Of a DNA stretch of 64,000 nt, positions 6,750-59,858 are shown one piece after another; the first letter of the stretch is position 1, and each line of letters starts with the position of its first letter. The translations under genes and the position numbers were made by a program. The notes under the pieces were generated by a model that was not told the DNA's origin, did no database searches, and saw nothing but the letters and a program-made list of their open reading frames with translations. The stretch comes from Massilibacillus massiliensis (GTDB lineage: Bacteria > Bacillota > Negativicutes > FLKF01). The stretch is taken from positions 559,166 to 623,165 of the forward strand of contig NZ_LT575483.1 of assembly GCF_900086705.1 (NCBI RefSeq). The letters run 5' to 3'.

Positions 6750-7004
6750 AATAAAAAACTCCCCCGCCCAACAAGGACGAAAGAGCAAACTTTCGTGGTA
6801 CCACCTTAACTTCTTTTGCAAGTTATCCGAACTTACAAAACTCAATTGCCATAACGCAGCACTTGCGACTATGCTTACTGAAAATTCAGCATAATAACTC
6901 CGAGTCTACCTTCCGTTAGATCCACAGAGAAACTTTTCAGCTAATAGTTTCCTCTCTATCCAGTGAAATACCAACATACTCTTCTCTTCATCGTCTTTTA
7001 CTTA
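6750..7004 (-). ncRNA. T-box leader controlling valS (valine)
   Basis: On the minus strand the leader contains the T-box core AAGGTGGTACCACG at 6795-6808. Its UGGU matches an ACCA tRNA end. An upstream specifier domain has the paired GTTGG/CTAAC helix above an internal loop with AGTA on one side and GGAAGGTAGAC on the other. The codon GTA at 6907-6909 (valine) is the best specifier candidate. Uncharged tRNA-Val should stabilise the antiterminator and allow valS-folC transcription. The specifier was assigned by eye. Confidence 0.93.
6759..6785 (-). terminator. T-box attenuator terminator
   Basis: Arms 6759-6769 and 6775-6785 form an 11-bp GC-rich stem (with G-U pairs) and a 5-base loop, followed on the minus strand by TTTTTTATTTT. 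The 5' side lies just past the T-box core, as expected for a terminator that competes with the antiterminator. Confidence 0.9.
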
Positions 7005-7324: not shown

Positions 7325-7407
7325 TGGTGCGGGTGAAGGGACTTGAACCCCCACGGTTACCCGCCAGATCCTAAGTCTGGTGCGTCTGCCAATTCCGCCA
7401 CACCCGC
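7325..7407 (-). tRNA. tRNA-Leu (anticodon UAG)
   Basis: An 83-base class II tRNA with encoded CCA. The acceptor GCGGGTG pairs with CACCCGC, the T arm has GGTTCAAGTCC, and the anticodon loop CTTAGGA gives UAG, reading CUA/CUG leucine codons. The sequence is identical to the copy at 49373-49455. Confidence 0.97.
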
Positions 7408-49372: not shown

Positions 49373-49455
49373 TGGTGCGGGTGAAGGGACTTGAACCCCC
49401 ACGGTTACCCGCCAGATCCTAAGTCTGGTGCGTCTGCCAATTCCGCCACACCCGC
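49373..49455 (-). tRNA. tRNA-Leu (anticodon UAG), second identical copy
   Basis: All 83 bases, including CCA, equal the gene at 7325-7407. The flanks and the terminators differ, so it is an old or gene-converted duplicate rather than a recent block duplication. Confidence 0.97.
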
Positions 49456-58098: not shown

Positions 58099-58479
58099 TC
58101 ATTCTATTTCATCAATTTTACTATACATCCGCACCGCTTGATTTCCATTTTTGCATTTCAATTCTTTTACTTGATCCAGAAAAGATTTCATACACGTTTT
58201 ACATAAACGCCCTTTGTTGATAATTTTTTTACACTGTTCACAAGGATAATATATATTTCCGCATTCCTGAATACGTCCATTTTCAATCATTCGGTAAATA
58301 ACAGCTATTTTTATTCCTGTAACCTCATGTATTTCTTCTACAGTGCACCGCCGATGTGTTCTTACATATTCAGCAATAAGTCGTTCATATTCTTCTTCTT
58401 TTTTCATACACTCTGGACAAATTCTACCAGAATCTTTTATAAACACCTTACCACACTCAGGACAACTGCCGATTTCCAT
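58099..58479 (-). CDS. YvyF-like flagellar operon zinc-ribbon protein
   Basis: The 126-residue protein has two zinc ribbons: CPECGKVF...CPECMKKEEEYERL at the N-terminus and CEQCKKIINKGRLCKTC near residue 75. Between them a helix-turn-helix-like stretch (RRCTVEEIHEVTGIKIAVIYRMI) is visible. This matches the YvyF/TIGR03826 family usually found beside flgM in flagellar operons. No flagellar gene is adjacent here; the next unit is under c-di-GMP control, which regulates motility. Function is not established. Confidence 0.75.
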   Translation of the reverse strand: MEIGSCPECGKVFIKDSGRICPECMKKEEEYERLIAEYVRTHRRCTVEEIHEVTGIKIAVIYRMIENGRIQECGNIYYPCEQCKKIINKGRLCKTCMKSFLDQVKELKCKNGNQAVRMYSKIDEIE

Positions 58480-59056
58480 GCCTTCTCTACCATCCTTTAA
58501 TCACAATGTAATACCATTTATCTTTGCTTTACTGAAATTTAAAATTATCTATATAATTATCTTACATTTCCCCATAAAGAGTAAAGTTCCTGCCAAGTTT
58601 ATATAAGGAATAGACAAAAACTATCAGAAAATTAAATATTTATATTATACTACACTATTATGCTTGTAATTTACTCTTCATTTGTAATCAATACTATATT
58701 TATTCGACCACAACAATGTTACATTTATCAATCGCTTTAATTCCTGCAATAATTTAACGACACATCTGTATCATACATGCTTTAACATTTGTATCTATAA
58801 AATTCACAAAACAAATTACCTATATACTTTTTAAAATTGATTTTATGGAAATATATCACAAAGTTTAAATTTATTTAAACTTTATAAAATATATAAATAC
58901 TATACTATTTTTCATATTTTATAATAGTATTTCATGTGCATTTTTACATTAGGACAATAGTCCTGATTCTCTTGACATTTTAATCTTTTAAATATAAACT
59001 TAAACAAGTTGGTATAATTTTCTATAAAAACGGACAATAATTGACAAAATGATAAT
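58480..59056. other. Long AT-rich region between the YvyF gene and the c-di-GMP riboswitch
   Basis: I see no supported gene in these 577 bases. It holds an 11-bp perfect palindrome with 2-base spacer (58860-58883, AAAGTTTAAAT/ATTTAAACTTT), a dyad AGGACaataGTCCT (58951-58964) directly before a TTGACA (58972-58977), and a TATAAT at 59013-59018. Confidence 0.6.
58951..59018 (+). promoter_or_regulatory. Candidate promoter region of the riboswitch transcript
   Basis: TTGACA (58972-58977) with TAAACT (58995-59000) at 17-base spacing, or a TATAAT at 59013-59018 with a weak -35, would start transcripts 20-50 bases before the aptamer. The dyad AGGACaataGTCCT ends 7 bases before TTGACA and could bind an activator. 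Confidence 0.45.
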
Positions 59057-59132
59057 TTCGCAAACTTATTGAAAGATAAGGACGCAAAGCTATGGGTCTA
59101 AGGATAAATATCTAGGACTGCCAAGTTGCCGA
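59057..59132 (+). ncRNA. Cyclic di-GMP-I (GEMM) riboswitch aptamer
   Basis: The segment has the class I layout: CGCAA opening, a helix closed by a GAAA tetraloop (TTATTGAAAGATAA), the invariant GGACGCAAAGC, the GGGTCTAAGG receptor side and the closing GTTGCCG that pairs with CGCAA. It senses the second messenger c-di-GMP. The terminator at 59150-59185 and the ORF at 59221 follow. On or off behaviour cannot be decided by eye. Confidence 0.93.
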
Positions 59133-59149
59133 TTTTATTTGTAAATCGT

Positions 59150-59185
59150 AAATAACGCCAGTCCCCCATTAGATTGGCGTTATTT
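59150..59185 (+). terminator. Riboswitch expression platform terminator
   Basis: AAATAACGCCA (59150-59160) pairs with TGGCGTTATTT (59175-59185). A short T-rich stretch lies in and after the 3' arm. A second hairpin CGATTT/AAATCG between aptamer and terminator touches the aptamer closing strand and may transmit the switch. Confidence 0.7.
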
Positions 59186-59220
59186 AGTTTGCTAAAAAGT
59201 AATGAAAAGGAGTACATTAC

Positions 59221-59400
59221 ATGTCAGAAGAATTCATGGAATTTCTAATCGTTTCTATTTTCGGAGTAATCGCTCTTTACTGGACGATTCGCAGACTTTA
59301 CGCATTGACACACCCACCAAAAAGCTTTTTTCAAAAAAGTATAAATCATAGTGAAATTAAATCTTTCCATAGCAAATATGGATTTATAGAAAGAAAATAA
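59221..59400 (+). CDS. c-di-GMP riboswitch-controlled membrane microprotein (59 residues)
   Basis: A 59-codon frame starts with ATG eight bases after AAAAGGAG and ends at TAA before a strong terminator. The product begins MSEEFMEFLIVSIFGVIALY, a single membrane helix (about residues 8-22), followed by a basic linker (WTIRRLYALTHPPKSFFQK) and a polar tail. I do not recognise a family. It is the only gene between the riboswitch and the terminator, so it is the regulated target. A role in motility, adhesion or signalling is inferred only from c-di-GMP. Confidence 0.8.
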   Translation: MSEEFMEFLIVSIFGVIALYWTIRRLYALTHPPKSFFQKSINHSEIKSFHSKYGFIERK

Positions 59401-59451
59401 AACAAGGGAAGTTGATTTAAATTATGTATTTAAATCAACTTCCCTTGTTTT
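59399..59451 (+). terminator. Terminator of the microprotein gene
   Basis: A perfect 24-bp stem (59399-59422 with 59428-59451) with a 5-base loop includes the stop codon and ends in TTTT. Confidence 0.92.
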
Positions 59452-59858
59452 ACTTTCTAAAGTTAAGACCCAAACGACAGCGTTCTTATTCCAATCTTAC
59501 TGATCTCTTTATCACGCTAACTTCTCCACAGCTAATGTATTTTTAAATAATTATTTTACAATAATTAAAATTTATTCATCACTAGAAAAACCTCCAATGA
59601 ATTATATCTGTTTTTGTGCTGTTTAAATTACAATAGGTAAGCTTTTATTTCTCATATTACAAGTTATTAGGAGTTATACCCCACAGTGCTTTTACAAAAA
59701 GCAGTATTGTATTGGTATTCTATACAACAAATTGTTTGATTATTCCGTAGGAACATAAGATGACTGAAAAACATCAGAATGCTATGATATTTCATATCAA
59801 ACGACAAATTTATAAACAGCAGGTTAAACTTAACAACATATTTCAGGAGGTCTTCAAA
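59452..59858. other. Upstream region of the Tat flavoprotein gene
   Basis: No gene is supported. A TGCTTTT/AAAAGCA hairpin lies near 59690-59706. The frame open from 59760 to 59858 lacks a ribosome site and I treat it as leader. Confidence 0.55.

Follow-up and report, generated by a model that had tools for sequence, protein, structure and literature searches.

The window analysed here, a 64,000-nucleotide stretch of the Massilibacillus massiliensis genome, carries a predicted c-di-GMP-I (GEMM-I) riboswitch placed directly ahead of a gene for a 59-residue, single-pass membrane protein, and sequence comparisons show this pairing of riboswitch and microprotein to be conserved across several Negativicutes families. 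The genomic neighbourhood of the family points to c-di-GMP turnover. Our preferred reading, to which we give a probability of roughly 40%, is that the microprotein serves c-di-GMP phosphodiesterases as an anchor or adaptor at the membrane, as part of a feedback loop, and that it is made when c-di-GMP is low.

The riboswitch locus

The features of the locus are as follows.

58972-59000, + strand: promoter-like site TTGACA-17-TAAACT (consensus match only)
59010-59018, + strand: extended -10 TGGTATAAT, read from the sequence (consensus match only)
59049-59133, + strand: c-di-GMP-I (GEMM-I) riboswitch aptamer (RF01051, 76.5 bits)
59115-59120, + strand: putative antiterminator strand A, GGACUG, within the aptamer and able to pair with the terminator 5' arm
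59150-59190, + strand: platform terminator hairpin outside the aptamer, stem 59150-59163/59172-59185, followed by a U-rich tract
59159-59164, + strand: CAGUCC, partner of strand A in the terminator 5' arm
59205-59212, + strand: Shine-Dalgarno sequence AAAAGGAG, 8 nt ahead of the ATG at 59221
59221-59400, + strand: microprotein ORF of 59 codons, with one membrane helix
59401-59449, both strands: bidirectional intrinsic terminator

An initial annotation had proposed a GEMM-I aptamer at this site, and an Rfam search bore this out: the match to RF01051 is full length (model positions 1-87 of 87) and scores 76.5 bits (gathering score 35 bits; E 3e-13 across the entire window), with the start corrected from 59057 to 59049. 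The ligand-specifying position before CAAAC is a G in the window aptamer (UUUC-G-CAAAC), which we take to be the equivalent of Vc2 G20, and GCAAA is found in every aptamer read. The presence of G or A at this position was used to separate c-di-GMP from cGAMP-type aptamers, a GEMM-I aptamer with G20A being known to bind cGAMP (PMC6274999). By both its score and its G, the window element has the sequence characteristics of a c-di-GMP-I riboswitch and is thus a predicted c-di-GMP sensor.

The remaining parts of the annotated locus were also recovered, namely a terminator-type platform (a hairpin at 59150-59185 with a U-rich tract), a good ribosome-binding site, a 59-codon ORF encoding a single hydrophobic helix and a final terminator given as 24 bp, which has 22 bp in the minimum free energy fold and reaches 24 bp with flanking A/T pairs. 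Transcription could start ahead of the aptamer from the promoter-like site and the extended -10. Between the aptamer and the final terminator there is no further likely gene besides that for the microprotein, and the locus reads as a monocistronic unit in which the riboswitch would serve this one gene and the terminator would close the unit. A hairpin directly 5' of the start codon, with a perfect 6-bp stem (GTAATG/CATTAC, 59199-59204/59215-59220), has the Shine-Dalgarno sequence within its 10-nt loop. MicroRNA matches at 59380-59466 were rejected as a mere reflection of the long terminator hairpin.

A conserved microprotein family

Searching with the window protein by itself gave two distant matches that have a tail motif in common, one of which (G015, from another family) has its own GEMM-I upstream. 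A profile of three rows, whose seeds included one member without a riboswitch, identified 11 further loci at E <= 2e-4, all 11 of them behind a GEMM-I aptamer. With an 18-row profile run on 380 Negativicutes genomes, 20 loci had E <= 1.4e-14; they come from 19 genomes in seven families, the window's own genome included, although these E-values are not independent for four of the rows (G090, G106, G037 and G027), weak matches admitted partly for their upstream GEMM-I. Below these 20 loci the scores drop sharply (next best E 4e-4). GEMM-I lies upstream on the same strand in 19 of the 20, and two members (G045 and G009) were picked up later without GEMM-I-based selection. One homologue, in G044 (L100/L002), has no GEMM-I nearby and is flanked by apparently unrelated genes. 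A scan with a closer alignment named Sporomusa sp. KB1, S. silvacetica, S. ovata and S. acidovorans as carriers. Among 299 genomes sampled from the wider phylum, no relatives were found except in the window's own genome, and a degenerate-pattern scan of genome contigs, derived from the three-row alignment, gave no match. One Sporomusa-like GEMM-I and microprotein locus (L133) lies on a contig labelled as a Neobacillus metagenome-assembled genome (MAG) and is probably misbinned.

Codon comparisons show purifying selection in two clades, with dN/dS of 0.10-0.30 in family f26 and 0.06-0.21 in family f10; three Sporomusa pairs gave 0.4-0.76, on 8-12 changes only. In several relatives a short ORF separates the riboswitch from the genes that follow, which might suggest a leader ORF, a translational relay or a chance ORF. 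We consider this highly improbable: the ORF has its own ribosome-binding site, has homologues in seven families, two of which show dN/dS far below 1, and in the window stands alone ahead of a terminator. On this comparative evidence the 59-codon ORF is taken to be a real, conserved gene, and the earlier idea of a new single-pass microprotein under c-di-GMP control, for which homologues and selection were to be sought, is supported.

Features of the microprotein

The 59-residue product begins MSEEFMEF and contains PKSFFQKSINHSEIKSF. A single hydrophobic helix (residues 3-30) is predicted with high confidence, and the prediction for the tail is of low confidence (pLDDT about 55). Because all 18 sequences have a neutral or acidic flank on the N-side and a net basic C-side, the expected topology is N-out/C-in, with a short N-terminus outside and the basic conserved tail inside. 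The tail (conserved over residues 27-50) is more conserved than the helix, and all members have the motif [KR]-S-x-F-x-[KR]-x(5)-[VI]-[EQD]-[IV]-[RK]-x-[WLF]; the conserved positions are Y27, [KR]34, S35, F37 (invariant), [KRN]39, [EQD]45, [IVM]46 and position 49, which is aromatic or Leu. Family members would be recognised by a match to the profile, a single helix with N-out/C-in charge bias, the tail motif and an upstream GEMM-I, all of which are seen in the window protein.

No match to the family was found above the curated cut-offs of Pfam and NCBIfam, nor any significant match in PHROGs or the PDB, and among open-licence papers we found no description of the riboswitch-microprotein pair; by these searches the family appears to be previously undescribed. 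Weak matches to TraL, CcmD and DUF4083 were rejected, being below cut-offs and not common to members.

CydX and CcmD are small single-pass proteins of similar size and one-helix architecture, a resemblance that raises the question of whether the microprotein, switched by c-di-GMP, might assist a membrane enzyme as an accessory subunit or stabiliser. One member has a sub-threshold match to CcmD (E 0.002), but this is one of 16 members and not the window protein, there is no sequence relation to CydX or CcmD above threshold, and the tail motif matches no described families. As the neighbourhood has no conserved respiratory or cytochrome genes, and it is the soluble tail rather than the helix that is most conserved, we regard such a role as unlikely. 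Less likely still is a small hydrophobic toxin-like peptide, in the style of type I toxins, under riboswitch control. The protein is short, with a single hydrophobic helix and a basic tail, as would suit a toxin, but its gene keeps a conserved place, first or second, in operons that include housekeeping c-di-GMP genes, almost all carrier genomes have a single strong copy, no relatives were found in plasmid and viral collections, and no antisense antitoxin was seen.

Expression platform and switch polarity

The platform hairpin has a perfect 14-bp stem and lies ~17 nt 3' of the aptamer; its U-rich tract is imperfect, and it was absent from a simple terminator scan because its T-run is broken. 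Automatic terminator calls were at times the antiterminator helix, and terminators were therefore re-picked 3' of the aptamer. When the window and 18 GEMM-I-linked relatives were folded, a terminator separate from the aptamer was seen, with the hairpin roughly 12-25 nt 3' of it and its 5' arm complementary to the aptamer strand GACUGCC. Compared with shuffled sequences, this complementarity has a combined p of 3e-4 over nine representatives that are partly related to one another. In single sequences the antiterminator pairing is weak (p 0.01-0.4), and a test in which aptamer and terminator strands were swapped between clades did not reach significance (p 0.27).

Two characterised switches provide a guide to polarity. 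In Cd1 from Clostridioides difficile, an OFF-switch of the T+H terminator type, the terminator strands lie outside the aptamer and the antiterminator uses an aptamer strand, whereas in the ON-switch pilM an aptamer strand is part of the terminator (PMC9262584). The window switch is like Cd1 in aptamer sequence and fold, in a terminator apart from the aptamer, in a possible competing antiterminator and in its transcriptional control; it differs in that Cd1 controls flagellar genes and the window switch an undescribed single-pass microprotein. Given a terminator outside the aptamer with a 5' arm that could pair with an aptamer strand, an OFF polarity is likely, and we think it probable that the microprotein is made at low c-di-GMP and off at high. 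This prediction from the layout is a refinement absent from the initial annotation. The three other GEMM-I elements of the genome (L139, L140 and L141) have the ON layout, in which the aptamer strand forms part of a terminator that a U run follows; the genes behind them are a response-regulator GGDEF gene, that of a chemoreceptor and the Tad pilus operon. Repression of the microprotein at high c-di-GMP, which probably follows from the OFF layout, would thus be the opposite of Tad pilus control.

Genomic neighbours in relatives

The riboswitch had been described as devoted to one protein. This holds for the window and about four other loci, and in most relatives a phosphodiesterase or phosphodiesterase-related gene follows. 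An HD-GYP gene (Pfam HD_5) lies 3' of the microprotein gene at L130, L131/L084, L132, L135 and L099, the carriers being three Sporomusa, a soil MAG (L135) and G015; by eye, the HD and GYP motifs of the G015 protein are intact. In family f10 the next gene encodes an EAL-HDOD protein. In family f26 it is a 56-residue ORF consisting of the HD-GYP N-terminal domain alone, identified by profile-profile comparison (hhalign probability 98.3%); BLASTP of this ORF against HD-GYP proteins gave no match. The GEMM-I-controlled HD-GYP and EAL-HDOD operons of Sporomusa and relatives (L130-L132, L135, L097 and L099) have the same riboswitch-microprotein pair as the window, but there a phosphodiesterase-type gene follows, whereas in the window the microprotein gene stands alone with its own terminator. 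No phosphodiesterase-type gene was seen 3' of the microprotein gene in the window, in S. acidovorans or at L136, L133 and L096, nor a phosphodiesterase gene at L134, and a phosphodiesterase partnership in the window and at L134, L136, L133 and L096 would be by analogy. The window genome encodes several unlinked HD-GYP proteins, the best of which is 33% identical over nearly the full length.

At four loci a second conserved microprotein of ~58 residues, soluble and probably helical, is encoded between GEMM-I and the membrane microprotein (L135 5764-5937, L136 5739-5918, L133 370-579 and L099 597-776); it belongs to no Pfam or NCBIfam family.

We also read, by eye, a sample of 60 other Negativicutes GEMM-I elements. 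These are mostly found before genes for chemoreceptors, HD-GYP proteins, surface proteins and chemotaxis, with small ORFs directly behind GEMM-I forming a recurring minority in the class that includes stand-alone HD-GYP N-domains. L161 and L199 have ORFs of ~60 residues resembling the HD-GYP N-terminal domain right after GEMM-I, starting at about 231, and further ORFs of 47-64 residues that have no family assigned lie directly 3' of GEMM-I at L153 (251), L165 (214), L172 (195) and L162 (294); that of L165 has no NCBIfam match.

A possible role in c-di-GMP turnover

We favour an anchor or adaptor because the family is associated with c-di-GMP turnover proteins in three ways, in one case with the HD-GYP N-domain only. 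According to the proposed mechanism, the GEMM-I aptamer would sense c-di-GMP and transcription termination would decide whether the microprotein is produced. At low c-di-GMP the terminator 5' arm would pair with the aptamer GACUGCC strand and the microprotein would be made; its tail might then dock a c-di-GMP phosphodiesterase at the membrane, or modulate it. From the neighbouring genes we infer candidate docking partners, HD-GYP proteins through their N-terminal domain and, in another family, EAL-HDOD proteins. In the window genome the microprotein would act in trans on one of the several unlinked HD-GYP proteins. More tentatively, the family as a whole may recruit or regulate phosphodiesterases via the HD-GYP N-terminal domain whilst being itself switched by c-di-GMP through the riboswitch, giving a feedback loop whose sensing RNA and controlled protein would work on one and the same messenger.

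A different possibility, which we rate somewhat lower, is that the microprotein acts directly as a c-di-GMP output effector, for example on the flagellar motor, the Tad pilus or envelope synthesis, rather than on phosphodiesterases, and that co-location reflects shared riboswitch control only. The window genome has flagellins, and among the genes behind its other GEMM-I switches are those of the Tad operon and those for a chemoreceptor and a GGDEF enzyme. Furthermore, the microprotein gene can stand alone behind the switch, and a YvyF-like flagellar-region gene adjoins the locus on the opposite strand:

58099-58479, - strand: YvyF-like gene, divergent from the riboswitch (TIGR03826, E 7e-24, below the curated cut-off)

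Set against this, the conserved neighbours are c-di-GMP turnover proteins in three forms (HD-GYP, N-domain and EAL-HDOD), and no flagellar or pilus gene was seen as a conserved neighbour. The annotation had envisaged a small effector, perhaps acting on the flagellum or envelope; a real and conserved protein has indeed emerged, with neighbours that point to c-di-GMP turnover rather than directly to those structures. A similar-looking YvyF-like gene is present at L165, after GEMM-I and a 53-residue ORF.

GEMM-I riboswitches are mostly known to control enzymes, chemoreceptors and operons for adhesion or motility, and a conserved microprotein served by a switch of its own would represent a new type of output. 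If the microprotein is indeed a phosphodiesterase anchor, it would offer a small handle on the placement or tuning of these enzymes at the membrane. An OFF switch in phosphodiesterase operons would amount to positive feedback, a possible route to bistable c-di-GMP states in Negativicutes.

Elsewhere in the window, two tRNA matches of the same length and score lie 42 kb apart (7328-7407 and 49376-49455, - strand), and there is a T-box leader at 6770-7000.
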